Shown: in pieces, positions 33,308-64,000 of the stretch
How positions within the stretch are numbered: position 1 is the stretch's first letter
Layout: every line of letters begins with the position of its first letter
Origin: Mytilisepta virgata
Taxonomy: Eukaryota; Mollusca; Bivalvia; Mytilida; Mytilidae
Direction: 5' to 3'
DNA length: 64,000 nucleotides
Assembly: GCA_028015205.1 (NCBI GenBank)
Contig: JAPWFG010000022.1
Span: forward strand, 1 to 64,000
Program-made: the position numbers and the translations under genes
The notes under the pieces: generated by a model
Seen by the model: only the letters and a program-made list of their open reading frames with translations
What the model was told of the DNA's origin: nothing
Databases searched by the model: none

Positions 33308-33376
33308 GACGATCCCCAGAGGATGCATGTGGAACAATACCATATGATATCAGTACGTCGGATAGTACAGATGAAG
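33308..33376 (+). CDS. Copy B exon upstream of the microexons
   Basis: The acceptor ATTTTAG and donor GAAG|GTAATAATA bound 69 nt, phase 1 at both ends. It encodes RSPEDACGTIPYDISTSD and TDE, a Ser/Thr/Asp-rich stretch with no known domain. Its phase matches both the proposed first exon and every microexon. It has no counterpart in the visible part of copy A. Confidence 0.6.
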
Positions 33377-36300
33377 GTAATAATAATATATCAAAGTTTA
33401 ATGTAAGTAATTTGGTATCGCCCTTTGGCAAGAAGCCTCAACATTAACCAAAATCAACAATGCAAAAATAGCTACAGGTCCATTCCTCGTTTTACCGGAT
33501 TTCCAACATTTTGATCTCGAGCACTGCTGATGAGTTGTCAGTGAACGAAATGGCTATACAGTGCATCAAATTTATTCAGTATTTTTGTGATACATTTTAT
33601 TTGCATATGCTCAAACCTTTTCATGTAAGTGACCCACAGGAGAGCATGCTGTAGATCTGTGGTGACAGGCCATAAATATTTGAACTATGTCCAGTACACG
33701 ATGTTGTGTCGATATCGTCCACATCGTTGTATAGTCTTCATTACATTTCAACATCATCGACATCGCCGACATCGCGATGTTGACAACATTGTAACGACAT
33801 CGTTCACATCGATATATAGTCTTCATAGCATGTTTACATCGTCGACATCGCCGACATCGCAATGTTGACAATATCGTGTCGACATCGACGACATCGCGTC
33901 AGCATCGATGACATCGCGATGTTGTCAACATTGTGTCGACATCGTTCACATCGTTGTATAGTCTTCATTACATATATACATCGTCGACATCGTCGACATC
34001 GCAATGTTGGCAATATCGTGTCGACATCGACGACATCGCGATGTTAACAACATCGCGTCAGCATCGATGACATCGCGATGTTGTCAACATTGTGTCGACA
34101 TCGTTCACATCGTTGTATAGTCTTCATTACATGTATACATCGTCGACATCGCCGACATCGCGATGTTGTCAACATTGTGTCGACATAGTTGTGTAGTCTT
34201 CATGACAGCATAGTGTCGGCATCGTTCACATCAATATACAGTATTTATTGCATGTCAAAATCTTCGACATTGACGACATCAAGATGTGGTAGTGGACATC
34301 GTCCAAATCGATATATAGTCGTATATCCAGAGGTAGCGATATGTAGACGTTCCTGTACAATGCCTTTTAAATTGTATGGAAGGATTTTCATTGCAAGTAA
34401 ATAACTGAAAACTGATTAAGAACATCCAACCTAATATTTCAGAGTATCTTGATTTCATTTCGAAACTGTACATTAAACTCCTGTGTTGACATGAAACGAT
34501 TTTAGTTATTCTCTCAATATTGTAAATGCATCGTTAGACAAGAAAACGATTATTATTAAGTGGCAACTAATCACAATGAAATTAATGATAATGCCCGAAA
34601 CACGGATTCCATAAGAATAAATTTGGGCGCTTCAATGGAGTAAGCAGTTAACGTTTCCTAGCAAGAAACGTGTCATGTTCCTCATCGTAAAGCATATTTA
34701 TGGATGGCTTTACAACCGTTCATTTGCATTGTAATTTAGGTATATACAATACATGTGCATTGTCGAAGCATGTATGTGCACGAGGCTTAGAAACACGGGC
34801 AACTGCGAGGCTCTGTCGAGCTTTTTTCCGCCAAACACATATGTTACCTAAATGCGTTGATAATCCATACGTATTGTGTTTATCCTGTAATTTAAATTCA
34901 TTATTGTTTCATTTCCTACCAAAATGAAGTGAAATAACATCAAATTAGTGAGAATTATATTAAAAAAAAATCCCGTGACGCGCCCCGATATTCGGCAATG
35001 GGCGTGGCTAACATAACTGATTAATATCAAAAACGATATTGGTCAGGCTGTATTGGTCAGCTAGAGCTGTCATTGCAGGATAAATATATAATACATGGTC
35101 ATTGTCGGAAAATATAAAATTTATTTGTGCGAGCTTTAGAAACATGACAAAAGGCGAGCCTTGGCGAGCTTTTTTCGCATATTTTGTAGCGAGCACAAAT
35201 AAATTTTATATTTTCCGACAATGACCATGTATTGTCTTTTTCCTGCAATGTAAAAATAGCTACTTTATCAGTAAACATGCGTTAAAATTTCAATTTAAAA
35301 TCATCGCGTAAAACGCGGGAAATGTCGTGACGTGAACTGGTATACAACTACTTTGCCTTTGCTCTGTAACGTCAAAAGGTACCAGAAACTTTATTAGGTC
35401 AATGACCTAATACGACTCAATGTTATTCTACCCCCTTTATAAGGTCGCAAAAAGGCGTAATTGCAGGATAAAAGTATTCATTAGATAATATCCAAAACTG
35501 AGATTGTTACTGCCTGACAATACCTTGATCAATTACAACAGATAAATACCGGCGAATTCAAGACAACGCGTTAATTGTAGTAAGTAAGACATAGATATAA
35601 AGAAACTGACTGTTATTATCATCAAGAAAGTTATACAAAAACACGTTAAAATTGCACTAATGCATTTACAATATACAGTATCATACATGTATGTTTCAAG
35701 CTTTATGTTTGTATGTTTTCTTCAGTTGGAAACTATTTGTTCATTATCGTCTCTAACTTTTATATTCTTCGCTGGTGGTGCATTTTCCTGATTCTCCATA
35801 GAGTTTACATAATCGTCAAACGTTATTCCGATGTCGGCGATGTGAACAAGGTAAATACTGGACAAAACGATGTCGTCAATGTTGGACCGATATCGTGACG
35901 ACATTGCCGACATCGCGATGTCGGCAATGTGAACAGGTAAACACTGGAGAAAACGATGTCGTCAATGTTCGACCGATATCGTGACGACATTGCCAACATC
36001 GCGATGTCGGCGATGTGAACAAGGTAAATACTGGACAAAACGATGTCGTCAATGTTGGACCGATATCGTGACGACATTGCCAACATCGCGATGTCGGCAA
36101 TGTGAACAGGTAAACACTGGAGAAAACGATGTCGTCAATGTTGAACCGATATCGCGACGACATTGCCAACATCGCGATGTCGGCGATGTGAACAAGGCAA
36201 ATACTGGACAAAACGATGTCGTCAATAATGGACCGATATTGTGACGACATTGCTAACATCGCGATGTCGGCGATGTGAACGAGGTAAACACTGGACAAAA

Positions 36301-39300
36301 CGATGTCGTCAATGTTGAACCGATATCGTGTCGACATTGGCAACATCGCGAGGTCGACGATATCGTGACCACATCGTGAACTGGACATTAATGAAATATT
36401 TTAACATTTTATCAATAAATAATTTTGTTAACTTAAGAGACTTAATGCTATAGATTTGCTGACAAAATATAAATATAATATAAGATGAACAGCTATAGCA
36501 GAATAGCGGAAAAAATACACTAAAGCTAGTTATCCTTCATTGTCACAATTAACGCAATACCGAGTGAAACGTGTATATATGCCTGCTTCCATATCAAATT
36601 GTGGAGCCTTTTTTAAATATAACTTATTTTAAATGCAAATTTATACCCCAGAGGGTTGACAGCATTATTTAAACATTAAAACAACATAAATTAAAAGTAG
36701 AACAGAAATACATAAAAAAAAATGTGTAAAACAATACACATATTATGCAGATGTAGAGTCACTTTCCTCTATGGACTTTTTTATAAATGGAGCAACAAAC
36801 CGCATAAGATCGTTAGAAGTTAAAATAAGTTTTAGTTTTTCAAAAGGCAAATAAATATTTATACTTGGTTGTATTTCAATGATGTTATTGAAGTAATCTT
36901 GCCTTAACATGTCATATTTCGGACAATTAAAGAAGAAATGTATTTCATCCTGTATCTCATTTAAATTACAATTTTGACTTATTCTGTTTTCTCTTCTGAT
37001 GTTTTTATGCCATCCTCTTTCAATTTCTAAAACGTGGTCACTAACTCATTTTTATAAGGTTTTTTCGATTTTCAAAGTTTGTATGAAGTAAAAAAAAATT
37101 CAGTTTGATATTCAGTTTTTATTTTACTGTATAAGTATTTTATTAAAGAACACACTTTCATAATTATTTCTATGTTTCTGTTTCAAAGTTTTAGTTAAAT
37201 TTCTTTTAAAACTCATTTGTTGCTTGTGTCCCCTAAAAATCAAACGGATTTTATTTTATTTACGTTACTTTTCTATAAATTTATACAGCAGTTAAATATA
37301 AGCGTACATACATTAGTCCGGCATTTACTGTGACCTCTGTACAGCATGGCGAATACTGCACGCAACTTTTATCAATATTTCGATTGTAAAATTAATTTCC
37401 TGCCAGCAAAACCTTGTATCACCTCTGTGACCTAAGATATTACGTACAAATAATATATTTGTGAGGCACTTTCTAAAATATATGCCATTATAAAGTTTTG
37501 ACTTAAATTTATCGGTTCAATAAACACGGAAAATGTGATGGTAAATCCTCTGGTTAAGGTTTGCTTTGAAGCTTTTTAACTATGAATAGGGTCACACCAT
37601 GATGAAAATTGGTACATATGTACATCATTATATGAACTTTCTTATTTATAACTTTTATAGGTTATGACTTCGGAGGCGGAACATTTGACCGACAGTTATT
37701 ATGACATCAACGGCAGACATATTTGAGTTGCACACGGATTTGGGACTACATGACGCAAATATAAATGATATATAAAAAAATAGTGACATAATAGAAGAAT
37801 TGTCTTAATAGTAAAACCATATTAACACATTAATTTGAGACCACTCCCAATATGCCACAAATTATTCAACACCTACTTTCTTTCCATAAATATTTCATCA
37901 CGTAGTTTTGTTATATTTTCGTGACATTCATTAAATCAGTTTCATACCAAAAGAAAAAAATCAATTTGTTTGAAAATATACTAACATAGTTAGATCGGAT
38001 GGATAATGTCTACGCAAGTTGTAAGATTTTGTAGATAATGACATTGAGAGAAATATTTGATTCTGTATATGTCTGTGCTTTAATACATACATATATATGA
38101 TGAAAAAAAAAAACAATTCGGAGGTTTAGCATATCATCTAATTTTATTGAGAGCGGAAATATAGATACAATGAGAGTAGTAAATGTGTTATTAAATTCAT
38201 TGTTGATAGGGTTTTTATATTTATTTTACAGAGGAATTTGAAAGTAAGTATAACCTACATATTTAAAATAAATGCAACTGCAGGTAATTGTTGAAGAAAT
38301 GCCAAAGTCTGTATTGTATTTAAGATATAATACATTCATTGCACTAAGTATTAGACACTGTATTCTCTTTTCTAATATAATGGACCGCCGCCCCGCAGAG
38401 TAGACAAGAACAATGGATATAATAAAATGTTTGATACCAGTTTTGATGCACAAGATGTGCAAATGTCGTCGATTTACCACTTGTGAGTCGTTGAAAGCCA
38501 AAACAACAATCCGAAAACTTGAAGAGAAAATTTCAAAAATTCCAAAATAAAACAGTGTTGGATAATGTTGTATTGTGATTTTTTCTATAATCATAGCTAC
38601 TTTCTCACAAAAATATTTTATGCACGTAGTACTAGATAACATGTCAGCATCATTGATATGGTTGTGTTACTTTACAACTCAGATGCATTTTAAAACCTCT
38701 GCTGTCGTATCACTTAAATAGATTTTATGAACAAATTACTGATCAAGACGTTAGTGACTAATTAATTAAAAAATACGGAAACAATTTGCCGAATAAAACG
38801 ACACAAATCTTTTCCGGTATTAAGTTTGTGGAAATTTTTGGGCCTAACTATTCAAACTAATCAATTTTTGTGTATTGGTAATAAAAGGCATCTGCTTAGT
38901 TTCGTTGATTTAAAATTTCAAAAAAATTGAAATGAAAAGGTGTTGTTATTGGCGCCATTGTTTAATTTCAAATGATAAATAAACATTAAACTTCCTTGAA
39001 GTACCTCAGTGGTTAATTTTATCTCATACAGATGTATTACCATTTAAATTGAAACAAAACATGCTATTTCAAGAATAATTCATATGTTGTTGGGTTCGTA
39101 AATTGTTCATGGTATCCGCTAAAATTGGTGTACGACTAATATAAAAGGTTCCTAGTATTTTAAACTTTCAGAGGTTATTGGTGGATTGATGTCAGACTTC
39201 AATTTTCTTTCCATAAATATTTCATGACGTACGTTTGTTATATTTTCATTACATTCCTTAAATCAGTTTCATATCAAAAGAAAAAACTCAATTTGTTTGA

Positions 39301-42300
39301 AACTATACTAACATAATTAGATCGGATGGATAATGTCTACACAAGTTGTAAGATTTTGTAGATAATGATATTGAGAGAAATATTTGATTCTGTATATGTC
39401 TGTGCTTTAATTCATACATATATATAATGAACGTAAACAATTCGGAGGTTTAGCATATCATCTAATTTTAGTGAGAGCGGAAATATAGATACAATGAGAG
39501 TAGTAAATGTATTATTAAATTCATTGTTGATAGGGTTTTTATATTTATCTTACAGAGGAACTTGAAAGTAAGTATAATCTAGATATTTAAAATAAATGCA
39601 ACTGCAGGTAATTGTTGAAGAAATGCCAAAGTCTGTATTGTTTATAAGATATAATACATTCATTGTGCTAAGTATTAGACATTGTATTCTCTCTTCTAAT
39701 ATAATGGACCGCCGTCCCGCAGAGTAGACAAGAACAATGGATATAATAATATGTTTGAAACCAGTTTTGATGCACAAGATGTGCAAATGTTGTCTATTTA
39801 CGACTCGTCAGTCGTTGAAAGTCAAAACAACAATTCGAAAACTTGAAGAGAAAATTTCAAAAATTCCAAAATAAAACAGTGTTGGATAATGTTGTATTGT
39901 GATTTTTTCTATAATCATAGCTACTTTCTCACAAAAATATTTTATGCGCGTAGTACTAGATAACATGTCAGCATCATTGATATGGTTGTGTTACTTTACA
40001 ACTCAGATGCATTTTAAAACCTCTGCTGTCGTATCACCTAAGGAGATTTTATGAACAAATTACTGATCAATACGTTAGTGACTAATTAATTAAAAAATAC
40101 GGAAACAATTTGCCGAATAAAACGACACAAATCTTTTCCGGTATTAAGTTTGTGGAAATTTTTGGGCCTAACAATTTCAAACTAATCAATTTTTGTGTAT
40201 TGGTAATAAAAGGCATATGCTTAGTTTCGTTGATTTAAAATTTCAAAAAAATTGAAATGAAAAGGTGTTGTTATTGGCGCCATTGTTTAATTTCAGATGA
40301 TAAATAAACAGTAAACTTCCTTGAAGTACCTCCGTGGTTAATTTTATCTCATACAGATGTATTACCATTAAGATTCAAACACAACATGCTATTTCAAGAA
40401 TAATTCACATTTTGTTGGGTTCGTAAATTATTCATGATATCCGCTAAAATTGGTGTACGACTAATATAATAGGTTCCTCGTATTTAAAACTTTCCGTGGT
40501 TATTGGTGGATTGATCTCAGACTTTAATTTTCTTTCCATAAATATTTCATGACGTACGTTTGTTATATTTTCATTACATTCCTTAAATCAGTTTCATATC
40601 AAAAGAAAAAAAACTCAATTTGTTTGAAACTATACTAACATAGTTAGATCGGATGGATAATGTCTACACAAGTTTTAAGATTTTGTAGATAATGATATTG
40701 AGAGAAATATTTGATTCTATATATGTCTGTGCTTTAATTCATACACATATATAATGAAAAGAAAATAATTCAAAGGTTTAGCAAATCATCTAATTTTACT
40801 GAGAGCGGAAATAAAAATACATTGAGACAAGTAAATGTATTATTAATTTCATTGTTGATAGGGTTTTCATATTTATTTTACAGAATTTTGTGGTAAGTAT
40901 AATCTAGATATTTAAAATAAATGCAACTGCAGGTAATTATTGAATAAATGCCAAAGTCTGTATTGTTTATAAGATATAATACATTCATTGTACTAAGTAT
41001 TAGACATTGAATTCTCTTTTGTTATATAATGGACCGCCGTCCCGCAGAGTAGACAAGAACAATTGATATAATAAAATCTTTGATACCAGTTTTGATGCAC
41101 AATATGTGCAAATTTCGTCGATTTACGACTCGTCAGTCGTTGAAAGCGAAAACAACAATCCGAAAACTTGAAGAGAAAATTTTAAAAATTCCAAAATAAA
41201 ACAGTGTTGGATAATGTTGTATTGTGACTTTTTCTATAATCATAGGTACTTTCTCACAAAAATTTTGTATGCGCGTAGTACTAGATAACATGTCAGCATC
41301 ACTGATATCGCTGTGTTACTTTACAATTTAGATGCATTTTAAAACCTCTGCAGTTGTATCACTTAAATCGATTTTATGAACAAATTACTGATCAATACGT
41401 TAGAGACTAATTAATTGAAAAATACGAAAACAATTCGCGCAATAAAACGACACAAAACTTTTGCGGTATTAAGTGGGGGGAATTGTTGGGCCTAACTATT
41501 CAAACTAATCAATTTTTGTGTATTGGTAATAAAAGGCATCTGCTTAGTCTCGTTGATTTAAAATTTCAAAAAAATTGAAATGAAAACGTGTTGTTATTGG
41601 CGCCATTGTTTAATTTCATATGATAAATAAACAGTAAACTTCTTGAAGTACCTCAGTGGTTAATTTTATATCATACAGATGTATTACCATTTAGATTGAA
41701 ACAAAACATGCTATTTCAAGAATAATTCATATTTTGTTGGATTCGTAAATTGTTCATGATATCCGCTAAAATTGGTGTCCTAGTATTTTAAAACTTTCCG
41801 TGGTTATCGGTGGATGGATGTCAGACTTTAATTGTCTTTCCATAAATATTTCATCGCGTAGTTTGTTATATTTTCATTACATTACTTAAATCAGTTTCAT
41901 ATCAAAAGAAAAAAAAATCAATTTGTTTGAAAATACACTAACATAGTTAGATCGGATGGATAATGTCCACACAAGCTGTAAGATTTTGTAGATCATGATC
42001 TTGAGTAAAATATTTGATTCTCTATATATCTGTGCTTTAATTCATACACATATATGATGAAAAAAAACAATTCGGGGTTATGCATATCATCTATTTTTAT
42101 TGAGAGCGGAAATATAGATATAATGAGACAAGTAAATGTATTATTAAATTCATTGTTGATAGGGTTTTTTTATTTATTTTACAGAAATGTACGGTAAGTA
42201 TAATCTAGATATTTAACATAAATGCAACTGCAGGTAATTGTTGAAGAAATGCCAATAGTCTAGTCAATCTAGCATAAATTTTACCCTAACCTTAAAGTAA

Positions 42301-45300
42301 TTGCAAAAGAAGATTTTTAAGTTTTAATGTTTAGCATTATACCCCATATATACACAGCAAAAAGTCCAACAAAATCTAACTTGACGAAGATTTAAAAATC
42401 ACGATTTTAAAATTCCTATGGAAATTTGCATTGAAAATAAGAGATAACTCTGCAAAAAAGACAGAAATATCAATAAAAATTGATACAAAATTATCACTTT
42501 ACCGCTTCTATTCAGCAGAATGTATTGATTCTTGATATTTTAGCCCTCTTTAGAGTATAACAAACAACTCCAAAGGTGTTTTTGTATCCTTTATCAAGCT
42601 ACAACCTTGATTTCGTAATTCGTTAGTTGACCATTTATTAAATTTTTCAACATGTCAAGGTAAAGAATCTCAAATTTAATAAAAATGATTAATCATATAT
42701 TCTTCTTTTTGTGGTTCAAAGTTTCTTTAAACAAGGTAGATGCTGAACAAACATAATTTACAGATATAAACAATACCACATTTTCACATTATTTTTTCAA
42801 AATGGTCACAAAGCCACAAATTTGCAATTTCTTTAATAAAAAATGTGCAAAAAAAATAAAAATACCCATAAATCTTCGGTTTTGTACATTTCATGAGCAG
42901 AAGATTATATAATATAGTCAAATACGAACTTATAACCCCATCAAAGTATCATACTTTACATGAATTTTAAGAAAATCAACCAAAAACTGACAAAAAGGCT
43001 AAGTTATCTCCCCTTTTCAATGTTAATTTCCATAGGAAATTAAAAATGCTGATTTTGAGTTTTCCTCAAGTTAGATTTTATGGGACTTTTTTCTGTGTAT
43101 ATTTAAGGCTTAATGCTATAGATTAGAACTAAAATATTTTCTGTTGCAATTAGTTTGAGGTTAAAACTTAGTTTGACTGGACTACAAAGTCTGTATTGTT
43201 TATAAGATATAATACATTCATGGTACTAAGTATTAGACATTGGATTCTCTTTTCTAATATAATGGACCGCAGTCCCGCAGAATAGACAAGAACAATGGAT
43301 ATAATAAAATGTTTGATACCAGTTTTGATGCACAATATGTGCAAATGTCGTCGATTTACGACTCGTCAGTCGTTGAAAGCCAAAACAACAATCCGAAAAC
43401 CTGAAGAGAAAAATTTTAAAAATTCCAAAATAAAACAGTGTTGGATAATGTTGTATTGTGACTTTTTATTGAAGAGAAAATTTTAAAAATTCCAAAATAA
43501 AACAGTGTTGGATAATGTTGTAATGTGACTTTTTCTATAATCATAGCTACTTTCTCACAAAAATATTTTATGCGCGTGGTACTAGATAACATGCCAGCAT
43601 CACTGATATCGTTGTATTACTTCACAATTCGCATGCATTTTAAAACCTCTGCAGTCGTATCACTTAAGGATATTTTATGAACAAATTACTGATCAATACG
43701 TTAGTGACTAATTAATTAAAAAATACGAAAACAATTTGCGGAATAAAACGACACAAAGCTTTTCCGGTATTATGTTGATGGAATTTTTCAGGCCTAACTA
43801 TTCAAACTAATCAGTTTTTGTGTATTGGTATTAAAAGGCATCTGCTTAGTTTCGTTGTATGAAAATTTCCAAAAAATTGAAATGAAAAGGTGTTGTTATT
43901 GGCGCCATTGTTTAATTTCAGATGATAAATAAACAGTAAACTTCCTTGAAATATCTCAGTCGTTAATTTTATCTCATACATGTATATTACCATTAAGATT
44001 GGAACAAAACATGCTATTTTAAGAATAATTCATATGTTGTTGGGTTCGTAAATTGTTCATGATATCCGCTAAAATTGGTGTACGACTAATGTAATAGGTT
44101 CCTAGTATTTTAAAACTGTCCTTGGTTATTGGTGGATGGATGTCAGACTTTAATTTTCTTTCCATAAATATTTCATTACGTACAATGACGTAGTTTTGTT
44201 ATATTTTCATTACATTACTTAAATCAGTTTCATATGGAAAGAAAAAACTCAATTTGTTTGAAAATATACTAACATAGTTAGATCGGATGGATAATGTCTA
44301 CACAAGTTGTAAGATTTTGTAGATAATGATATTGAGAGAAATATTTAATTCTGTATCTGTCTGTGCTTTAAATCATACACATATATAATGAAAAGAAAAC
44401 AATTCGTGGTTTAGCATATCATCTAATTTTATTGAGAGCGGAAATATAGATACAATGAGACAAGTAAATGTATTATTAAATTCATTGCTGATAGGTTTTT
44501 TATATTTATTTTATAGAGACATTTGACAGTAAGTATAATCTAGCTATTTAAAATAAATGGAACTGCAGGTAATTGTTGAAGAAATGCCAAAGTCTGTATT
44601 GTTTATAAGATATAATACATTCATTGTACTAAGTATTAGACATTGGATTCTCTTTTCTAATATAATGGACCGCCGTCCCGCAGAGTAGACAAGAACAATG
44701 GATATAATAAAATGTTTGATACCAGTTTTGATGCACAAGATGTGGAAATGTCGTCGATTTACGACTCGTCAGTCGTTGAAAGTTAAAACGACAATCCGAA
44801 AACTTGAAGATCAAAATTTTCAAAATTCCTAAATAAAACAGTGCTGGAAAATGTTGTATTGTGATTTTTTCTATAATATTAGGTACTTTCTCACAAAAAT
44901 ATTTTATGCGCGTAGTACTAGATAACATGTCAGGATCACTGATATCGTTGTGTTACTTTACAATTCAGATGCATTTTAAAACTTCTGCTGTCGTATCACT
45001 TAAGGAGATTTTATGAACAAATTACTGATCAATACGTTAGTGACTAATTAATTAAAAAATACACGGAAACAATTTGCAGAATAAAACGACACAAAGTTTT
45101 TCCGGTATTAAGATTGTGGAAATTTTCAGGCCTAACTTTTCAAACTAATCAATTTTTGTGTATTGGTAATAAAAGTCATGTTCTTAGTTTCGTTGATTTA
45201 AAATTTCAAAAAAATTGAAATGAAAACGTGTTGTCATTGGCGGCGTTGTTTAATTTCAGATGATAATTAAACAGTAAACTTCCTTGAATTACCTCAGTGG

Positions 45301-48300
45301 TTAATTTTATCTCATACAGATGTATTACCATTTACATTGAAACAAAACATGCTATTTCAAGAATAATTCATAGTTTGTTGGGTTCGTTAATTGTTCATGA
45401 TTTCCGCTAAAATTTATGTACGACTAGTATAATAGGTTCCTAGTATTTTAAAACTTTCATTGGTTATCGGTGGATGGATGTTCGACTTTAATTTTCTTTA
45501 CATAAATATTTCATCACGTAAAATGACGTAGTTTTGTTATATTTTCATTACTTTACTTAAATCAGTTTCATATCAAAAGAAAAAGCTCAATTTGTTTGAA
45601 AATACACTAACATAGTTAGATCGGATGGATAATGTCTACACAAGCTGTAGGATTTTGTAGATAATGATATTGAGAAAAATATTTGATTCTGTATATGTCT
45701 GTGCTTTAATTCATACACATATATCATGAAAAGAAAACAATTCGGGGTTATGCATATCATCTATTTTTATTGAGAGCGGAAATATAGATAAAATGAGACA
45801 AGTAAATGTATTATTAAATTCATTGTTGATAGGGATTTTATATTTATTTTACAGAAATGAGTAGTAAGTATAATCAAGATAATTAAAATAAATGGAACTG
45901 CAGGTAATTGTTGAATAAACGCCAAAGTCTGTATTGTTTATAAGATATAATACATTCATTGTACTAAGTATTAGACATTGGATTCTCTTTTCTAATATAG
46001 TGGACCGCAGTCCCGCAGAGTAGACAAGAACAATGGATATAATAAAATGTTTGATACCAGTTTTGATGCACAAGATGTGCAAATGTCGTCGATTTACGAC
46101 TCCTCAGTCGTTGAAAACCAAAACAACAATCCGAAAAGTTTAAGAGAAAAATTTAAAAATTCCAAAATAAAAGAGTTTTGGATAATGTTGAATTGTGACT
46201 TTTTCTATAATCATAGGTACATTCTCAGAAAAATATTTTATGCGCGTAGTACTAGATAACATGTCAGCATCACTGATATGGTTGTGTTACTTTACAAATC
46301 AGATGCATTTTAAAACCTCTGCTGTCATATCATTTAAGGAGATTTCATGAACAAATTACTGATCAATACGTTAGTGACTAATTAATTAAAAACTACGAAA
46401 CAATTTGCGGAATAAAACGAGTCAAAGCTTTTGCGGTACTAAGTTTGTGGAAATTTTTGTGCCTTACTATTGAAACTAATCAATTTTTGTGTATTAGTAA
46501 TAAAAGGCATCTTCTTAGTTTCGTTGATTTAAAATTTCAAAAAAATTGAAATGAAAACGTGTTGTTACTGGTGCCATTGTTTAATTTCAGATGATAAATA
46601 AACAGTAAACTTCCTTGAAGTACCTCAGTGGTTAATTTCATCTCATACAGATGTACTACCATTTAGATTGAAACAACACATGCTATTTCAAGAATAATTC
46701 ATATTTTGTTGGTTCATGATATCCGCTAAAATTGGTGTACGACTAATATATTAGGTTCCTAGTATTTTACAACTTTCTGTGGTTATCGGTGGATGGATGT
46801 TAGACTTTAATTTTCTTTCCATTAATATTTAATCGCGCACTTTTGTTATATTTTCATTACATTACTTAAATCATTTTCATATAAAAAGAAATAACTCAAT
46901 TTGTTTGAAAATATAATAACATGGTTAGATCGGATGGATAATGTCTACACAAGTTGTAAGATTTTTGTAGATAATGATATTGAGAGAAATATTTGATTCT
47001 GTATATGTCTGTGCTTTAATTCATACACATATATCATGAAAAGAAAACAATTCGGGGTTATGCATATCATCTATTTTTATTGAGAGCGGAAATATAGATA
47101 CAATGAAACAAGTAAATGTATTATTAAATTCCTTGTTGATAGGGTTTTTATATTTATTTTACAGAAATGAAACGTAAGTATAATCTAGATATTTAAAATG
47201 AATGCAACTGCAGGTAATTGTTGAAGAAATGCCAAAGTCTGTATTGTTTATAAGATATAATACATTTATTGTACTAAGTATTAGACATTGGATTCTCTTT
47301 TCTAATATAATGGACCGCCGTCCCGCAGAGAAGTCAAGAACAATGGATATAATAAAATGTTTGATACCAGTTTTGATGCACAAGATGTGCAAATGTCGTT
47401 GATTTACGACTCGTCAGTCGTTGAAAGCCAAAACAACAATCCAAAAACTTGAAGACAACATTTTAAAAATTTTAAAATAAAACAGTGTTGGATAATGTTG
47501 TATTGTGACTTTTTCTACAACCATAGGTACTTTCTCACAAAAATATTTTATGCGTGTAGTACTAGATAACATGTCAGCATCACTTATAGGTTGTGTTACT
47601 TCACAATTCAGTTGCATGTTAAAACCTCTGGTGTTGTATAACTTAAGGTGATTTTATGAACAAATTACTGATCAATACGTTAGTGGCTAATTAATAGAAA
47701 AATACGAAAACAATTTGCGGAATAAAACGACACAAAGCTTTTCCGGTATTAAGTTGGTGGAAATGTTTGGACCTAACTATTCAAACTAATCAGTTTTTGT
47801 GTATTGGTAATAAAAGGCATCTTCTTAGTTTCGTTGATTTAAAATTTCAAAAAAAAATGAGATGAGAAGGTGTTGTTATTTGCGCCATTGTTTAATTTCA
47901 GATTATAAATAAACAGTAAACTTGCTTGAAGTACCTCAGTGGTTAATTTTATCTAATACAGATGTATTACCATTTAGATTGAAACAATACGTGCTATTTC
48001 AAGAATAATTCATATTTTGTTTGGTTTGAAAATTGTTCATAATTTGCTATGCATGTTGGCTCTGTGTTTTTGTTAAAAGTGATGAAAATTTAAAAAAGGT
48101 ATAATTATCCCTATGGCCAAATGAACACTACCGTTTTCCCTAAAACCTCTGTTAGCGTATTAATGAGATTTTTTAAACAAATTACTGAATAATATGTTAG
48201 TGACGAGTCAGTTAAGAAAAAAACACAATTTGCACAAAGCGACACGTACAAAGCTTATATTCACAGGATTATATTTTAATAAGAAGATAGTATAAATATG

Positions 48301-51300
48301 TAGTTATATTACTTTCTATATATTTGTCTCTAATTATTTATACTTAGTATCCTGACTATTTTCCGTTTGTTTTTTACGGGAACGCCAATTTCCAGCTACA
48401 CTGAGAATGCACTCCAACTTCAATCCAGGATATATTTTTTCCATTCCTGCCTTATTCCACCCTTATTTCCGAGACTCTCTTTTACCACATTTTGGCCTTA
48501 TATTTTTTTTTTTGTCTTCTACGACTAATGTTACACAACATTTAGATTTAACTTCTCACTGTCATTTCTCATGTGTCTGTGTGGTTCTCGGAAAAGTGTC
48601 GATTGAGAGATAAGATTTCGAATGAGAAAATTTGTTTGAATTACATTGTATGTTTTCATTAATCATAAATAGTTATAAATAGTTAGTTATTTAATAAAGA
48701 ATTATATCCAACACTGAAAATTTAAAAAAAAATTAAGCGAAAAACAAACCAATTTTAAAGAAATCATATGAACATCTCAAAATGTTACTATTACCATTAG
48801 GTCTGTTTCAGACTTGTTGTCATGTTCTAGTAAATATCCAACAATACAATGTGGTAATATGTTCCCTCCAGTTGTATAATATGGAAATATATTGTTTTCT
48901 TATGTTATATGAATTGAACGTGTCTCATAGGATTACAGTTCTAGCCGGATGATTACAAAAATATAACAATTTTATTATATTATATTTATGTTTTGTCTTT
49001 CAGTTTTCGCGGTTGGTAAGTATGATGTTGATAGGTATTACAAAAACATGATGAAATAAGAATGTATCCAGATAACTTATTACTCTATTATTAACATAAA
49101 AGAAAGACATGTATTACCTTGTTACTTTAAACCGCCATAATAACATAGAAAACAAAATATGTAATGTATGACATTCCAGAGATAAAATGGAAGAGAAATA
49201 CATAGTTTGGATTAACTTCTTAATGTCATTCCTCCGTGGTTCTCTAAAAAGATCAATATGTATTGAAAGAAAAGAATTTGACGGTGAAAGTATTTCTGAA
49301 TTATGTTAACATTAATCATAAATTTATTTTTGCTATCTAATGAAGAAATGAACATTTTGGTTTCTGCAGACAAAGAACACTTTTTGTAATTGATACTAAA
49401 TATGTGTTTAGTTTTTATATTCCTGAAAATAGAAAATTACTATTTTGATAATTATATTGAAGGGAAAGAGATATAATCTTGGATTAAAAAAAGAAATAGT
49501 TAAGAGGATCGATAAAAATGTCAAGAATTTTTTTTGTGCGCGTTTTTTTCTAGTTTTTCCCACTAATGTAATGAATGGACTTTCACAATCTATCATCTAT
49601 TAACAAAATTCCTGTCTATGATGCAACAGTAGATTAGGGTCAAAACAACTATGAATAAAAGCCTTCCCCAAAAAGATTTTTTTCGGAAACCCGACGGAAA
49701 AAGTTGACCTTGTATTAGCCAACAAATCTATATTGTCACTTGGCTAGATTATTATGGAAATTCATTTATTCTTTTGATCTTTTAGATTTTGTATTAGTGG
49801 GAAAAATAGGTTTGGTAAAAAAAGTTTTACTTGTCATTCAAAAAAATATCAGGGCAATTGATCTTCATATTAATAAGTTTATGTCTTCATATTAATAAGT
49901 TTATGTCTTAATTATCATAATTAAAAGCATCGTTTGATTTTCCTAGGAACTTATATACCGCAACACATATTAAATAAACTTCTATCAACTGACTTGGTGC
50001 CATCACATGACGGTAGAATCCTTGTGGTTGGAAGTTTTGGAGCAGGTAAAACTACACTAGTAATGAACCTTATCTATGACAAGATACCAAAAGAAAGACA
50101 GAGTACCATTGGAATTGATGTTTATTTTGGAAACCTGCTGTTTGATGTGAAGAATAGACGACTTCTTAGGAGAAGAGCTGGTAATCACAATTTCATTTAT
50201 CTTACATTTTTAAGAGTCCAATTTCATATTGTTTCAAGATTGGGATGATATATGCAGATACATGTAATATTGAATAATGAATTATTTTGATCATTTTGAT
50301 CTCGAGCACTGCTGATGAGTTGTCAGTCAACGAAATGGTCATACAGTGCATCAAATTTAATTCGGTATTTTGTGACATATTTTATTATGAAGAATTAGTG
50401 AATAAAGAGTACCATTTTTTGTATACATATAAATCTATCTTAAAAGTACTGTTGGATTATCTGGTAATTTGGTACTTAGAAGATTTTCGAAGAATTCATG
50501 TTATGTATTTTAAAAGTCAAATACAATTTATATTGACGTGTATTAAGATTGCCTCCAGAATTACTGTGAAACATCATATTCCATCAGTGTCGCCAATCAG
50601 ATGTGGATTCTTAAAAACTCAAAAAAATTACTACATGTACAATATCTAAAATCAAAATCTTTGGCTACATGCAACAGCATAAAAACATTCGATTTCTTAG
50701 CACTCTACACTAGCATACCACATTCTCAATTATATATCGCACACACAGGTATACATTTTTATTTATAGGTAGAGAAAAGGCTTATTTCGTGAAGAACTAC
50801 TCTAATTCTTACAAAAACTATTCTGAAGATGAAATTACAAACATGTTAGATTTTCTCATAGACAATATTTTTGTTAAATTTGGCGGTCTAATTTTTCAAC
50901 AAACAATCGACATTCCAATGGGAACCAACTGTGCTCCTCTCCTCGTCGATATGTTTCTGTACTCAATTGAGGGGGACTTAATTCAAGGGCTACTATGTGA
51001 AAACAAAAAGAAACAAACCCAATCCTTTAATTTCACTTTTCGTTATATAGACGACGTGTTGTCGTTAAATAACGACAAATTCAAAGACTTTCTACATCTA
51101 CCCCAGTGAGTTTGAAATTAAGGATATTACATATACACCAAAGTCCGCTTCATATTTGGATTTGTTTCTTGAAATAAACAATGAGGGACATTTGAAGACA
51201 AAACTTTATGACAAAAGTGATGACTTCAACTTTCCTATTGTTAACTTTCCCTCCATGAGTAGCAATATACCAGCATCGCCTGCATATGGCGTCTACGTTT

Positions 51301-54300
51301 CTCAGCTTATCCGATTTTCATGGGCATGCATGAGTTACCCTGACTTTCGACAAAGAGGATTACTGCTGTCGCAAAGGCTTAACCAGGGGATAAGTTCATG
51401 TCATCACTTACGAAATTTGGCGGTTGTCATCACGAATTGATTGACCGTTACAGTGTCCTAATATCCAGGATGATGTTTGACCTGTTCCCACAATCGTCAC
51501 ATTTCATGTGCCACCACCGATTTGTGACGTTGTTGAACTTCACGACGGGTGCCGGATACGAAGCAGGAACTGCATACCCTTCCGAAGCACCTGTGTTCAC
51601 TCCTGGTTTTTATAAGAGTCCGTGCTGTTCGTTGTTTTTTAATTTTCAGTGTTTATTTGGTGTGCTTATAGTTGTTCATTGTCTGTCCAATGGATTACGT
51701 TTTTTATTATCTCCTTAGGTATATTTGTCCTTTTTATATCTCCTAAAGTGACCTTGATTACAAGAATAGATTAAATTTTTGCAAAATACAACGTCAGTTT
51801 ATTGTCACGTAATTACTACCTATGCATACTCAATAATAACTCTCTTACAGAACTGCAGTAAATAGTTATCATTAAGTTGAAAGATGATTTCAAAACACTG
51901 GAAATTAAGACGTGGATATAACATACATTTTGTAGAAAAAACGTCTTCACTGCATAGGTGCAAATGTTGTCCATGTTGCAACATTATATCCTTCTTTTTT
52001 TAGATAAGTAGAAGCCTGCAAAGGATTTTACTTACTACTCGCCTCGTCCACGCGAACAAGTATTGTTTGTCAAGAACATCCTCACAAATGGTAACCAAAG
52101 GACGTCCTAAATGTCAGTCCTGACATTTTTTCCCGAAACGGGAATCAAACAATGAAACTTTAACTACTACCCCATGGCGCATACATAGTACTTTCTATCA
52201 TTAAGGCATTATTGCTCCTGCTGTGTATCATTCCCGCGGTTGTTACAGTTTTGACAAGGAATGCATATATATGTGTTAAACGTTTCATCTTGATTATTTA
52301 GATATTTTAAAAAAGAGTGGGAATGTAAAGACAAAGTTGACCTGTTCTGAATATTGGCTATCCTGTTTATTTACCACGGGTTTTTTCCTTGCAATGTTTC
52401 GGATTTTTCATTGTTTTGATCTCTGACAAAGGCTGATATAGAACGTTATAACAGTTTCTATGTTTATTTACTTTTGAGTTTGGTTATTGACGACTGCGCA
52501 TAAAGATTACAAAGGACCATTTTTCTTTAGGTTAAACATTTCATTAAACTAATATGATGCTCTGATTTATGTGTTTTTCAGGTCAGCATTCGTTTTCAAA
52601 GGCATTGTACCAAAAATTATTGGCATATATGAAGACAGTGGATTTGATTCAAGAAAAGGGAGAACCAGAAAATAATCAGTGGGAGATAATAGCAGCAACC
52701 ATAGAAAGTATACATCAAAAAGTGAATGTGTTTGCGCAATCAGAAGATGCACACAATGAAGAGTTTATTCCTATCCCGATTCTGGATTTTGCTGGTCAGA
52801 TTGTCTATCTAGCAACGCATCAAACATTTATTACATCACATGGAATTTACGCAGTTACTTTCAATGGAGCAAAAGATCTACACAGCGCATTGAAAGAAGA
52901 TTTTAGCACTGTAAATAAAAACTACACAATACTGGGTAATTATATTTGAAATAAACCAGCACTGTTTTCTGCATTAACATTCCCTCGACCGGGTCAAACC
53001 AAAGACATTACAATTGGTATTTGCTGCTTCTCCGCCAAGCACGCGGCATCTATGAGTAATAGCAAAGACTGGTCGGCTCGGAGTCAGTATAATGTGTCCG
53101 AGTGAGGTGATATGTCTTCCTGCAGACAGTTACCTCGTGAGCTAGCACATTAAAAATCCGACTTCGGTCTAGTACAAAGCAGGGTTCATATTCATTATCA
53201 TATCAACATGTTCCCGTCCTGTATGTACCTGGTGCCACTGGACGTTAAACAATAATTCATCCATCTTTCGAACTTTTTATATGAGAATAAAAAAAAAATC
53301 AGGTGGTATGACTGATCTACGTTATTACGTCGATAATTAACGGGAAACTGTCTCAAATTTATTCTGTCTCAAACAAAAACAAGCTGACCCCTTACTCTAG
53401 ACAACAAATATGAAATTAAAGTATTTATAAAAACAAACTCGGTATGTATGTGCAATATACATAATGTTTATGTTTTTTATTTGTTTTTTACGAAGACGTC
53501 CTGAGGTCATTAGTTGTTTTTTTTTTTTTTGTTTAGTTATAATCTATGACGTGCAAATAATCTGTTAGTTATAAACAATAATAGCTTCTTTCCTGTATTG
53601 ACTGAAATTTTATAATTAAATGATTTTGAATTCCAGATGGCATTCGACAGTGGGTTTCCTCAATTCTTACATATTGTTTCCAAGAAACCAAAGGATACCC
53701 AAAGATATTGTTTGTTGCTACACATAGAGATCTGCTAGAAGATGTAAATATAATATTCACAAAAATAACACAGCGGAAAGGGGGATCTCAACGCTAAATT
53801 TCCACAAAATACAGAAACAGATGCAATCATTGAATAGTAAAGCAGCAACAGACATATATATGTAACACAATTTAAAAGGCAAAGACAGTCATTGCCGTTA
53901 AGGAATGTTCGACAAAACAATTTACCAAGGAATATTTTCAAAGTTATTGATATATATTTTACATCTAATCCTGTAACCTTTCTTTCAAGCGTCAATCGTT
54001 TAACAAACAAACATACATGAACCTGGACATGGTTCGCTGTGCTATCTTATACAGTTACAATGTTCAATTAAAAATATCATGCTTAGCTGAATAAATGAAC
54101 TACCACTACTTCGTAATTTCCGTGTAATTTGGTCTTGTTTTCGTTGTTTTCCGGAGTTTGTCAGTTGTTTCGTTTTTCCATCCTTCGAATATCCATTTGG
54201 TATTTCTTCACTTTACTTAATATTTTAAGAAATAAAAAGGATAGCTTTTATTAAAAATATGGTTTCGAATAAACTGAGCTCTGCAAAAGAAAAAAGCAGA

Positions 54301-57300
54301 AGAGAGAATAGAAACGTAGAATGTGTCAAAAAGACAACAACCCGACTAAAGAGCAGAAAACAGCCCAAGTCCACCAATGGGTCTTCAACGCAGCTAGAAA
54401 ATCCACCAGCCGTAGCCGGGTTTTAGCTGGCCCCTAAACAATGATTCATACTAGTTTAGCGAAATGGACGCCACACTAAACTCCGAAACGTACAAATGAA
54501 CCAAAATTCCAAAAAGCACACAAGACAGGCTGAAAAATGCCGTACAATTAAACATGTTTTGTGAGATCTCAACCCTCCACCTATACCTCTAGCCAATGTG
54601 GAATAAACAAACACACAGCGATACGCACAGTAAAACTCACTTCAAAATAAGTCCGAGTCCATTGTTATAAAAGGTAACAGAAGAAGCTAAACACAGTCTG
54701 TGTGAAAAGCTTTTTATATGTGTGGCAAGTGCGTGGATGCATGCTACAGCATATTGCATCTATTGTGTTCTGCACAATGTGGTCGACATTCATTATAAAA
54801 TCTATATAATGACTCTTAAAAAAACGTGATATATAAAAATTAAGAATGATATGTGTATAAGCGTTTTAAACGCACCAAAAATAAATGATTTTTGAATATC
54901 AAAACAGAGTGCATGTAACATAGCAACATTTCAATTTTGTAAATTTGTTTTTTGATCTTTTTATGACAATTCCTCTCACTGTTAAAAAATCGTTAAGAAT
55001 AAAGCTAAATTTATACATTCTTCTAACAGTATAACATTTTAAAGTTTAATAAATCTACATTCCTCTCTGCTTAATGTAATAGTACAATAGTTCGAAATAG
55101 TACAAAGGATAATCATCATTTTTAATTTTCATTATTTTAGATCATATTATCACCTGAAAAAACCATGTGATTTTTAATCTCAACTGGCCAAACCCCAATA
55201 TGAGCTTTTACCATCACTTGGTTCCATCTTTCTTTCGTACGTCGTCATCCGTCCGTTAACTTTTTTGCATTTGGATCTTCTTCTAGAGATCCACTGAACA
55301 GAATTTACCAAAGTTGGCAGAGATGTATTTCTTACTGTTGTTACTTGGGCACCAATTGTCAGGAAACATGGCTGTCAGACCCTATTCTAATTTCTGATTG
55401 GTTGTACTTTGAAACAAATCTCAAGAACGATACACCCGATTGAACCCAAACTTAATAAATATGTTTCTATAGAGGTTCTTAACAAGTGTTGTCATTTTGG
55501 TGCCGATCCGCAATCATAGATTGCCACCACGGCTGAACTTTTTTAACATAAGGATTCTATGGGAAGATTCATTTTCAAATCTTCTTGCGTGAATCCACAT
55601 AGTCAATTGGAATAAGACTTAGCAGCAATGGTCCGTGACGATACTCCTTCAGTATTGTGTCGAATGACCCAGACTCTACTTATTATGACCGTCACAGCCG
55701 AACGTTGTCAAATATAGGACCCTTTTGGAAAATTCATCGAAAATCTTCTTATCTAAAACTATTGAGCTTATAAGAACCAAAGTTTGAAGAAATGGTCCTT
55801 AGGTTATCTGTGTTATGACCCGGGCTGTCGACAAAGATGGTCGCCACCGTTGAACGTTGTTTAACATAGGACCCTATAGGACAATTCTTTAAAAAAATCT
55901 TGTCTGAAACTACTGAGGCAATTGAGACCAGACTTGGCAGAAGTTGCGCCTACGTAGTCCACATTAAAAATTGTGTTTGATGACCCGGAATGTCAAAAAA
56001 CGTGTGCGCCAGAGCGAAACTTAGTTTAACATAGGATCTTGTGGGAAAATTCATCAAAAATATTCTGATCTGAAAGCAATTAACCAATTGGAACCAAACT
56101 TGGCATAAATGTATTGTAGGGCGTCTTCCCGCAGAATTGTTTCTGATGACCCGGGCTGTCAACTTAGATGGCCACCAACGCCGCAATGGCAGCCATAGTT
56201 ATTAGACTGTCCTCACTGAGAATCATCTACAATAATATGAACTGTTGTGTATTAGGTGAATCTATGGTCTTGATTGGCAAATTGAATCCAGGTGGGCGAT
56301 ACAGGCTCCTCGGAGACTATTTTTCAATTGGTTTGAACAATAAAAACGGTAATTGTAGTTATGTTTAACAAAATCTTTTCAGGAACAAGTGGAAGACAAG
56401 AGGGAGGAATTTCTTCGAATTCTGAGGACCACGCTTGCAGAGGAAAACATGAAATCACATCTTATGCTGGACACATTATTTTTTATCAACGCGACAGACC
56501 CAGAAGACGCTGAGATATCGAATCTTCGACATGTCCTTGAGAAACTGATCTTGGAAAATCCACATTGGGATAAAAAAGTACCGCGTCAGTTCCTTGTTCT
56601 TGAGATGATGCTGGCCGCATTAGTTGAAGAAGGAAAGCAGATAATGTCTCGGACAGAGATAGAAGAATTGAACAGGCAGACAGGGGATAAACCACTTTCA
56701 GAAGAAGAGTTGGCTTTGTTCCTTCACATCCAACACAATTGTGGAAAGTTGACATATCTAAATGTACCGGGTCTAAAGGATAATATTGTAATCAATCCCG
56801 TCTGTTTGGTAGATGTCCTCAAGTCAGTTGTGACTTCAACTCCGACTTTACCAGACCTGAAAGAAGGACGTCTTCGAAAATGCGACCTGGCAACATTATG
56901 GAAATCTGGCAATTTCATACAGTTTCTGCCTTTTGAAGATTATCTTAGAGAGCTACTTGTTCAATACGACATCTTAGCAGAGGTTAGACGGTACGATAAA
57001 GAAACTGGAAAGAGGGGAGAAGTTGATTTGTATCTTGTTCCGTGCATGGCGCCTAGGCATAACAAAACATCATTTGTGAGGAATTGTCTTACCAGAGATA
57101 AATGCATCAGCTTCGTGTTTGAGTTCAAGACATCAGTTGTTCCTTCAGCCATACCAAGCAGAATGATAGCCTGCCTTATAAGTATGTGGAATGTCAAAGC
57201 TTACGAAAACACGGAACTACTTTTTTCTGGGTTTGCTGGTGTGACAGTTGACAGAAAACACGATCTTATCTTGCAGACTGAGGGAAACATGCTGGTATTG

Positions 57301-60300
57301 ATTTTAATCCATAAAGAAAGAAAACAGCTGATCATACGTGATCTTGCCTCGAGTGTACGAGAATGTCTGGAACAAAATTTATTAAGAATTTCAGAGGTTT
57401 ACTCTCTTTCTTTCTCTACTGATCTGATATCAGAGAGGTACGTGCCATTTGTTCTAAAAGTAAGATCAGGATGTTTCCACTCCAGTTGCTTGTTGGATCC
57501 CAACGATTTTCCACAGCTAAACCAAACCTGGAAGTGTGCCAATCATGGTGTCGAGACACCATCATCAGAGCTGGATATTTGGTATACTGATAGGGTATGT
57601 AATATTTTATCTTGAAGCGATAACAGAAAATTGTGTACAATATCCTCCAATGAAAGGAACATTTAAACATTATTAGAGTAAAATAAATCAAGTTAAAAAG
57701 TAGTCAGACTAGAAGTCTCTCAGATATTGAATATTGTAAAACATAAAACGGATAACACGAAAGGTCAACAAATAGACCGACACTCAACACATATCATAAC
57801 AGATCATAAAACAAAACACTAAGAACAAAACATAGTCTGATTTGTTAGAAATGTTTTCAACAAACAATATAAGTAAATATATGTAATACAACGAGTCATC
57901 AAAGAGGACAAAAAAGAAATTGACTATTATAAACTAATAGATGTAGTTCAAAACTTTGGAAGAAATAATTTAAAACAATCTGCAAAATAAAAGATCATAC
58001 AAGCGTTGTATATAAATCTTTTTCCCTCTCCCTATTATTATTTATTACAGATAAATTACTTGATATGCAACCTACAAATCATGTGTACTTGTTAACACTT
58101 TAAGAATTTAGTAAGAAAAAAATGTTCCTTTCATTTTCTAGCGATTTCAAGAATGCACTACCTCTTGTCATGGTAAGTACTGACTGAAAATATATTCCCC
58201 ATTAACTTGTATTTCGAAAAGTAATTCTCAGTTTTTGTTGTTTTGTTTTATTTAGTTCAAACTTTAAAATATTCCGAAAACAATTTTTGACAGTCTTCCA
58301 ACATAAATATTATTTAAAATTGATCGTATTAAAGTATTATCAAAAGATTAGGAAAAATGAAAGGAAAGAAACCTTAATAGTTATATGATTCTGTATCAAG
58401 TTAATCGTTTAACATCTAAATGGATTTTTCCAGGCATTGTGGACGCTGTACTTTCCATGCTTTTAAACGATACACATTTGTTGCGTATATGCAGCTTTCT
58501 GACTGTAGAGGAAGTTCGTAGTCTTGCAGTACATCTTGGGATGTCGAAGCCAGAATTTGATGAAGTTGAGCAAACCAAACATATGCCATCAATGTTAAAG
58601 TTTTACAGTCTACGAGCCTGTAGAGAGAAGAATAAATCGTGTGCAGATTTTGTCAAAGCGATGGAACAGGCAGAAATCAACAAACACACAATGTGCAAGG
58701 TACTTACTTTGTTGCTATAATCAATATGAAGGTACCTAAAAATATTGTATTTCACTCTAAAGAATGCGATCACAAGAAGCCGTTGCTCCTGCCGTTCCTA
58801 CTACACCTAATACAGATACAAATCATAGTAATGTTTTCACCCTACTGTTTTTAATTTCAATGTGATGAAAATGATTTCAAATATTTTATATTCGAAAAAT
58901 AAAAATGTGAATGTCAAATACTAAAGGATGAATAAATAGACAATCAAACCAGTTAAATGGTGTGGTTTAGAAATATAAAGTTTAGTTTGATGATTAATTG
59001 TTTGAAGTCGTATTTAAACAGTCGGAACGTGGATGTGTAGGAGAATAAAATGTCTTGATAAAACAATCCTAAATGTATCATGTTTTATGGTTTATGATAT
59101 TTAACCGTCTTCGATGATAAATCTTGATTTCAAAGCATATAATTTAAAGATGTGTGTTTGCATAAAGTATTATTATAATTTGCATCTTACAAATCAAGTG
59201 GATGTTGTCGTCTGTATACCAGCACTAATTTACTTTAAATGCTTATAACACATTTCTCAATTCGTAGTAAAACCTAAAAACAACTTCTTTATCCAGAAGA
59301 TATATTTTAGGCCAAAAAGGCAAACACCAAACGTGATCCAAACGTTATAATATCATAGCATTTTCACTTTCTAAGACTTCGTAAAGATAAAATATAAAGC
59401 CTTTGGAAATGACAAGTTTATTTGGTTTGTTTAATTTTGTTGACAGATACTGAGACAACAGGAAATACAAACAGGTAATATTTTCTTACATTTTTTACAA
59501 TGTACAGGTAAATGAAGATAGTAAATAATCTTATACACATTAATACAAAACAATACAAATTTATTAAGAAATATGCTCCAGTGTGGTATGTTTATATTAC
59601 GCTGTAAACAACTTTTTTATAGTTTCAGTTGAAGTACTGTTGTAAGCATTTGATGACATACACCACAATATAAATAACAGTAAGGGTCAGCAATGACATA
59701 CCATTCAATCTAAACACCATCCAATCTACAGAACATAGACAAAAATAACATAAAAGAGCACAAAACAAAAACATGTTTGTAAAAAACATAGATTTAGGAT
59801 GTTTCGTCTTTGGACGGACAGAAAACAGGGGTGGCTTTAATCCTTTTTTATAGGTCAACACAAATCCTTGTCTGCCCTGACCAATTAGTGAGCAAATCAC
59901 AAATGTGATTCAGTATTAAAGCTATAAAGTATGAATAGATCCAATGGATCATCCAGCAAAATTTGCTCTGCTGTTTCTAATCTTTTCCTGTGAAACTACT
60001 GTATACATTGAGTCCAAAATCTTATTTTCCCTTGTGGTGATCTGAATTGACCTCATCGAATAGTACTGCTGTTTAAAATAATTAACAAATTGAACTAATC
60101 TCCTCTGAAATTGGTGAAGTTGATACTAAGGTCTGATGCAGTGGTACATGTGGACAAGTTTATGTATTATCTGACACTAAACCATTACAACATACCTTAA
60201 ACAAACTTATGTATAACTGCTGGATTTATCACACACAATTCTTTTATTCCATTTTTAATGATCAGGGTTTGCTCAAAGCTCAAACCCATAATCCAAACAA

Positions 60301-63370: not shown

Positions 63371-63379
63371 TCGTGAATG

Positions 63380-63606
63380 ATATTTTATCTAAACAAGAAT
63401 TTTGGTTCATTTTGTATGTTTTGGAGTTTAGTGTGGCGTCAATTTTGCTGAACTAGTATGTATTTGTGTTCAGAGGCCAGCTGAAGCCCACCTCCGGATG
63501 CTGATTTTCTCGCTACGTTGAAGACCCATTGGTGGCATTGGGCTGTTTTCTGTTCTTTTGTCGGGTTCTTGTCTCGTTGACACATTCCCCGTTTCCATTC
63601 TCTATT
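63380..63606 (-). repeat. Mussel-type dispersed repeat, reverse orientation (duplicate)
   Basis: It is the partner of 13080-13312, with the same CCATTGGTGG, TTCTTTTGTCGGGTT and GTTGACACATTCCCCGTTTC landmarks. Confidence 0.75.
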
Positions 63607-64000
63607 CTATAATATATTACTAACTGCACATTGTACGTATTTGATATAGTATTCAATGTTCTATATTAATCCGTATGAATCAAGCTACACTGTCAAAGGA
63701 AAGCGATGTCTGCCTTTAAAAATGAACATTACTGCAGACAAAAAATGATGGAGATAAGAAAAACGAAACTATATGGAGACACTTGAATTTCAGAACTAGA
63801 AAACTGCACTGAAAACGTGCAACCCGAGCCTTTCTTTTCAGAATAATTTCTTTGATACCAAATTCGATGTACAAGGTATGCACATGTCGTCTATCTAGGA
63901 CTCATTAGTTGTGCTCAAGTCCTAAAAAATAATCTAAAACGTTTAGATGCCGAAATGCCTCCCAAAATGTAGAGCCCAAACCAAATAAGGACAGAGTTAC

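Follow-up and report, generated by a model that had tools for sequence, protein, structure and literature searches.

The first 64 kb of contig JAPWFG010000022.1 (C92) in the genome assembly of the bivalve Mytilisepta virgata (1.03 Gb in 109 contigs), a stretch of 64,000 nucleotides referred to here as the window, carries on its + strand a predicted ROCO-Death gene, in which Roc, COR and Death domains would follow one another and which, to judge from its sequence, is intact over all exons examined. Between a short upstream exon and the exon that opens the Roc domain lies a tandem array of eight in-frame coding microexons of 9 or 12 nt, which frame and splice signals confirm. The array, its growth and the divergence of its microexons are the subject of this report.

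Seven of the microexons stand one to a unit in the type A array (37877-48043, + strand), where blastn of the seventh unit recovers tandem units with a period of about 1.33 kb. Microexons 1 (38232-38243, AGGAATTTGAAA, read as [E]EFE[K]), 2 (39556-39567, AGGAACTTGAAA, ELE) and 5 (44517-44528, AGACATTTGACA, TFD) are 12 nt long, and microexons 3 (40884-40892, AATTTTGTG, FC), 4 (42185-42193, AAATGTACG, MY), 6 (45855-45863, AAATGAGTA, MS) and 7 (47165-47173, AAATGAAAC, MK) are 9 nt, all on the + strand. A preliminary description of the window, made from its letters alone, had proposed just such a series of seven units of about 1.3 kb with an eighth microexon downstream, and both parts of that proposal hold. 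The eighth (49004-49015, + strand, 12 nt, TTTTCGCGGTTG, FAV) belongs to a different repeat type, type B, whose unit (48740-49475, + strand, by blastn) is present once in the window gene and multiplied into a long array in another copy, g3, described below.

All eight microexons lie between an AG acceptor and a GTAAGTAT donor (GTAAGT), and all are open in phase 1, the phase set by the flanking exons at 33308-33376 and 49947-50180, as had been described; five of them, rather than the three originally counted, meet a stop when read in phase 0 or 2. The suggestion that any subset would keep the frame was likewise confirmed, and no junction between one microexon and another yields a stop codon in this gene. 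A generic scan of the window for YYNYAG, 3-27 nt and GTAAGT found ten sites on the + strand, eight of which are the array microexons, and three on the - strand, so that the array stands well above chance. The same pattern occurs at ten other + sites in 178 kb of C92 (three of triplet length) and at seven in 168 kb of a second contig, C6 (four of triplet length). Unit 4 carries an insertion of about 0.9 kb (about 42262-43184) that its sister units in the window lack and that is apparently common to a unit of the C6 copy c6B whose microexon, AAATGTACA, is nearly identical (a single match of 2982 columns); the two units thus look like direct counterparts. Some 40 nt downstream of each donor, all seven type A units of the window have CTGCAG followed at once by GTAATT, formally an acceptor and then an immediate donor-like GT, as in a zero-length exon or a ratchet-like site, which may be chance.

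Outside the array, nine constant exons on the + strand join without a stop, with AG and GT at every site where they are due. The upstream exon (33308-33376, 69 nt, phase 1-1, RSPEDACGTIPYDISTSDSTDE) has an open frame between AG and GT sites, and a counterpart with 62.5-70% protein identity precedes both arrays on C6; none was found for g3. The Roc domain (Pfam, 40.1 bits against a cutoff of 27) is encoded by an exon with the P-loop GSFGAGKT (49947-50180), a second with DFAGQ (52582-52935) and a third with THRD (53637-53743), each with open frame and splice sites, and LRRK2 Roc chains appear among weak PDB sequence matches. Directly after Roc, as expected, comes a 1212-nt open exon (56383-57594) assigned to COR, whose COR-A match of 30.1 bits lies under the Pfam cutoff of 35.3. 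It is followed by a 31-nt constant exon (58142-58172) conserved in par1, c6A and c6B, an exon without a Pfam match (58434-58699, open frame and splice sites), for which a death-like fold is only a guess from its appearance, a 28-nt constant exon (59447-59474, open frame and splice sites), and a C-terminal exon (60875-61203) with a Death domain (51.5 bits against a cutoff of 22.6) and the stop codon. No N-terminal start could be located for the gene, and Pfam, applied to the + strand of 14.0-33.5 kb with E values as high as 1 allowed, gave no leucine-rich repeat (LRR) or other N-terminal domain. A search for a second P-loop exon gave neither a further motif on the window's + strand nor a convincing tblastn match.

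Further copies and the growth of the arrays

Arrays of this kind recur. A pattern search of the genome returned three matching sites in the window and one further site on C6, and three further array-bearing copies of the gene are present, c6A and c6B on C6 and g3 at 105-177 kb of C92. A blast-based search for both types of flank, in which triplet length was not required, gave 48 rows, from which one one-sided row (134619) was dropped and three with a broken splice site were set aside; two of the remaining 44 microexons were corrected by hand (106781, given as 16 nt, measures 12 nt when counted from its AG; 108966 lacked a donor match although GTAAGT stands at its end). The window gene accounts for eight of these intact-site microexons, c6A and c6B for five each and g3 for 26. 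Without exception the 44 are 9, 12, 15 or 18 nt long, and internal stops, which occur in eight of them in phase 0 and in 19 in phase 2, are absent from phase 1. Among the 53 distinct gap events in the introns nearby, only seven are multiples of three (4/25 for type A, 3/28 for type B, counted without two C6 units with rearranged flanks and without 108966). Spacer length tracks the number of units, eight microexons amounting to 84 nt and five to 54-57 nt.

Reference points of both units, at 46712-48043 for type A and at the ends of the type B unit already given, lie inside introns, and by blastn the limits of most copies fall on or close to the same intronic points, some copies being partial; duplication therefore copied intron, exon and intron together. 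In g3 the tandem multiplication of the type B unit extends over C92:108-163 kb, and at C92:147047-162938 the unit forms about 22 tandem copies. Most of these are some 0.8 kb apart, and some form alternating blocks of two units whose microexons are identical (GTCTTCATCGTAGTG occurs four times). Array members also decay, as two extra type B microexons of c6B illustrate, one without its donor (C6:8647839, TTAAGT) and one without its acceptor (C6:8648635, CAA).

Like the window gene, to which it is 95.7% identical over 8.3 kb, c6B is intact over all exons examined. A tandem paralogue of the same Roc-COR-Death gene occupies 2372-11233 of the window and, as far as its exons are present, is intact; the P-loop exon and the array would fall to the left of the contig start. 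It is 97.5-98.5% identical to c6A over the main aligned blocks. Similarity between C92:1-100000 and C6:8557001-8725000 is patchy and partly collinear, at about 81-98% and with rearrangements. The two stretches may represent diverged haplotypes of a single gene cluster that varies in copy number, in which case the number of microexons would differ between alleles.

The window holds several other features. After the paralogue stands a C1q-domain coding stretch (13962-14426, - strand), and the adjoining segment 12971-13702 recurs at 63265-64000 with 91% identity. A fragment like the reverse transcriptase RVT_1 (50714-51106; Pfam 16.3 bits, cutoff 29.6) lies in the intron after the P-loop exon, and a repeat of about 104 bp, 86-90% identical, occurs at four sites in and around both genes (10542-10645, 33499-33601, 50284-50387 and 60687-60790). 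The first intron has two minisatellites rich in CGATGT and ACATCG (33710-34191 and 35829-36361), by eye each similar to the reverse complement of the other, which could pair in RNA.

Divergence confined to the microexons

The strongest evidence bearing on the array is of three kinds that the preliminary description had missed: the breakpoints inside introns, the recurrence in other copies and an excess of divergence in the exons over the introns around them. Among 81 same-length pairs from 18 type A units, exon divergence is 4% where the flanks differ by less than 3%, and stands at 37.5% where they differ by 3-6% and at 43% where they differ by 6-9%. Among 83 pairs from 25 type B units (without 108966) it reaches 60% where the flanks differ by 6-9%. 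Control windows of 9 nt taken over the unit hardly ever match this. In the window array without unit 4, which was set aside for its insertion, none of 1286 was as divergent as the first 9 nt of the exon and one of 1286 as divergent as the last 9 nt; with all seven units and shorter flanks none of 476 reached exon divergence, and neither did any of 348 in g3 (19 units of type B from the block at 147-163 kb, with two partial ones out). An earlier test on the seven window units and four c6B units, one of which has rearranged flanks, gave 0/281 for 9-nt exons and 2/264 for 12-nt exons.

The edges of the divergent segment are sharp and fall at both splice sites. No zone of raised divergence was found beside the exons of the window's seven units, where the near flank is as low as sequence farther away, so gene conversion is unlikely to be the whole cause. 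The pattern is a jump and not a slope, and we cannot explain it fully.

Proposed splicing of the array and competing explanations

Starting from features that can be read directly (frame, intact splice sites, intronic breakpoints, recurrence in other copies and exon-only hyperdivergence), we favour, with a probability of roughly 0.58, a reading in which symmetric phase-1 microexons form a coding array that has grown by unit duplication and would be spliced in order into a hypervariable spacer ahead of Roc. Tandem duplication of intron-exon-intron units of types A and B would enlarge the array between the short N-terminal exon and Roc, and all or most of the microexons, with some skipping possible, would enter the mRNA in sequence, each adding 3-6 residues. 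The number of units would set the length of the spacer, while rapid replacement of microexons under diversifying selection would set its surface. The spacer would probably serve, perhaps as part of innate immunity or of cell death, to vary the docking or oligomerisation of a Roc-COR-Death switch.

The joined peptide counts in favour of this reading. Read in order, the eight microexons of the window give one segment, EEFEKELEKFCEMYETFDKMSKMKLFAV, that is largely amphipathic; the corresponding peptides are EEIKKELAKMYKESLKFF in c6B and EEIKKELAMTIEQSSLKIE in c6A, and that of g3 starts EETKRQLQK and continues in a long stretch rich in Ser, Arg, Gly and Pro. Each type A microexon would lengthen the spacer by three or four residues, roughly a single turn of helix, usually with one large hydrophobic residue, and the type A part might thus form an amphipathic helix leading into Roc. 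Hydrophobic-moment tests, which covered the window gene, c6A and c6B, gave p = 0.034 at 100 degrees and 0.005 at the best angle for the type A part of the window, and 0.004 and 0.017 for c6B; for all eight window microexons the result is borderline (p = 0.038 at 100 degrees). In all four copies, furthermore, every junction between adjacent microexons is free of stops.

A number of results pull the other way. At the best angle the eight window microexons together give only p = 0.073, in c6A the amphipathicity is not significant (p = 0.26 at 100 degrees, 0.52 at the best angle), and type B peptides lack a helical appearance. Exon divergence in type B is only 5% where flanks differ by 3-6%, and beyond about 16% flank divergence exon divergence lies at 25-61% with no further rise. 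Nonsynonymous differences are high, and synonymous positions are raised too in five of eight bins, which plain amino-acid selection does not predict; the pattern appears closer to wholesale exon replacement of the kind called ASSET, discussed below, than to such selection. Three array microexons, at index 90839 and 91635 of C6 and at C92 147047 (9, 9 and 15 nt), have lost a splice site. Two copies are damaged: in c6A the second Roc exon is frameshifted and COR holds one stop, and in g3 a nonsense codon interrupts the second Roc exon and the match to COR is shortened. The in-frame arrays of these copies may be recent relics. The 44 microexons are related, some identical, and are not independent trials. 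Unit histories on the two sides of exons and introns, compared over pairs that are not independent, are mixed, with c6A against our reading: at 100 nt the six pairs of c6A have a rho of 0.94 across the same intron against -0.91 across the same exon, g3 shows both signals (rho 0.31 for the same exon at 60 nt and 0.37 for the same intron at 150 nt), and the window array, in which the unit 4 insertion disturbs the set, gives no significant correlation either way.

The same exons could also be used differently. If each were skipped or included independently, the window gene could make up to 2^8 linkers and g3 far more; the 256 versions of the preliminary description stand as an arithmetic ceiling, and the free choice that they presuppose does not follow, the joined peptide fitting ordered inclusion at least equally well. 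Exons this short are often skipped, all the microexons are symmetric and in phase 1, and every ordered pair is open in the window gene, c6A and c6B. Symmetry, however, follows from unit duplication alone, and in g3 stops arise from 3 of 325 ordered pairs and from 3 of 26 microexons joined directly to the Roc exon, where a final T meets an initial GA to give TGA (read off the output). Free choice is therefore a tentative alternative, unlikely if by no means negligible. The rule of one microexon per transcript fares much worse. Dscam-type mutually exclusive clusters are tandem exon arrays that give variable segments, and the tandem, homologous, hypervariable exons seen here recall them, each single choice keeping the frame in the window gene; here, unlike there, no docking element rises above shuffles (complementarity between the unit and two single-copy introns was equalled in 42/60 and 34/60), the three T-ending exons of g3 would run into TGA, and two different unit types stand in series, which makes this mode very improbable. 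The T-ending argument, it must be conceded to both alternatives, is weak, for it comes from the damaged g3. Both one-of-N and free 256-fold choice are nonetheless less supported than ordered, possibly skippable, inclusion. A bolder scheme, which we hold to be a shade more doubtful than free choice alone, would have two self-multiplying unit types feeding arrays of 5-26 microexons that are combinatorially spliced ahead of Roc, with exon-confined replacement refreshing the repertoire between copies, perhaps between haplotypes, so that each individual would hold a private set of switch variants in an invertebrate cell-death GTPase family.

Other explanations concern what the array is rather than how it is used. 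The damage to c6A and g3 and the three lost splice sites would suit a non-functional tandem repeat around an ancestral microexon no longer in use, yet 44 of 44 microexons keep frame and phase-1 openness while nearby introns gain non-triplet indels, an exon-only acceleration that stops at the splice sites is not expected of drift, and no lesion was seen in the examined exons of the window gene or c6B; we give this account only a small chance. Introners, that is, mobile introns inserted repeatedly into one old exon and splitting it into unrelated fragments, would explain intron copies that are alike, exon fragments that look unrelated and a joined peptide that is coherent, and in c6A the intron ends indeed share history better than the exon flanks. 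Against them, the unit in most copies begins and ends inside introns with the exon mid-unit, for both unit types; the spacer lengthens with the number of units, a single phase is common to all the introns, and the history test is silent for the window array and gives mixed signals for g3. With most unit boundaries intronic and not at splice sites, the introner model is disfavoured and its probability is slight indeed. Concerted evolution, which may be likened to PRDM9, would have conversion keep the introns young while exon differences are old and selected, and is compatible with any of the splicing models. Exon divergence near saturation beside similar flanks, whole units that are nearly identical and mixed histories on the two sides of exons speak for it; the zone of raised divergence that it leads one to expect beside exons is absent from the window's seven units, and we consider it rather unlikely. 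The c6A history result raised our estimate for both introners and concerted evolution very slightly.

Relation to known systems

If the array is expressed, duplicating its microexon units would be a means to lengthen and re-sequence a spacer in steps of 3-6 residues, diversification being limited to 9-18 nt, and exon duplication, microexon splicing and rapid evolution would be linked in a Roc-COR-Death family plausibly tied to immunity or cell death. Exon and intron contrast so sharply, more than is usual, that the array might be used to weigh selection against local replacement as the source of exon-only acceleration. Splice aligners often ignore very short exons, and annotation pipelines may consequently miss microexons such as these.

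Several elements of the system have precedents. In schistosome micro-exon genes (MEGs), as reported in PMC4350168, small exons account for the bulk of the coding region, and their alternative splicing is documented. Common to both systems are runs of tiny symmetric exons (8/8 in the window gene, 44/44 of those with intact sites across the four copies), fast protein change and small peptide steps by skipping; the present case involves a single spacer of a GTPase gene, tandem copies of units and splicing that is only predicted, and the coding region is dominated by the 1212-nt COR exon and others rather than by small exons. Avian fast troponin T has seven tandem P exons (the Tx segment), each encoding a pentapeptide repeat and expressed together (PMC11016001), a precedent for tandem small exons jointly expressed as one segment. 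Where those exons encode nearly the same pentapeptide, most of the units described here, which were made by unit duplication, encode different peptides, with an exon divergence of 37-60% in the main bins.

Closest in gene family are the brown-algal ROCO genes, for which PMC11378527 reports tandem 72-bp LRR exons in phase 2, positive selection and alternative splicing. The statement of the preliminary description that no array of repeated microexons was known in ROCO genes needs to be narrowed accordingly: tandem arrays of symmetric exons do exist in this family, but those are not microexons and occupy another position, with one LRR per 72-bp exon, whereas here the exons are 9-18 nt, in phase 1 and ahead of Roc, with no LRR found on the + strand of 14.0-33.5 kb. 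Titles of open-licence PMC articles, among the matches listed, included none describing tandem microexon arrays before Roc or in a mollusc. For the divergence itself, the nearest parallel is ASSET in snake venom toxin genes, where short exon segments are reported to be changed to unrelated sequence (PMC2711939 and PMC2474615); there venom toxin genes are concerned, and here the change lies between tandem exons within a gene and between gene copies. Thus, series of small symmetric exons, tandem small exons and tandem exon arrays in ROCO genes are already known, and what is unusual in Mytilisepta virgata is the exon-confined hyperdivergence between tandem microexons and the growth of two unit types within one spacer.

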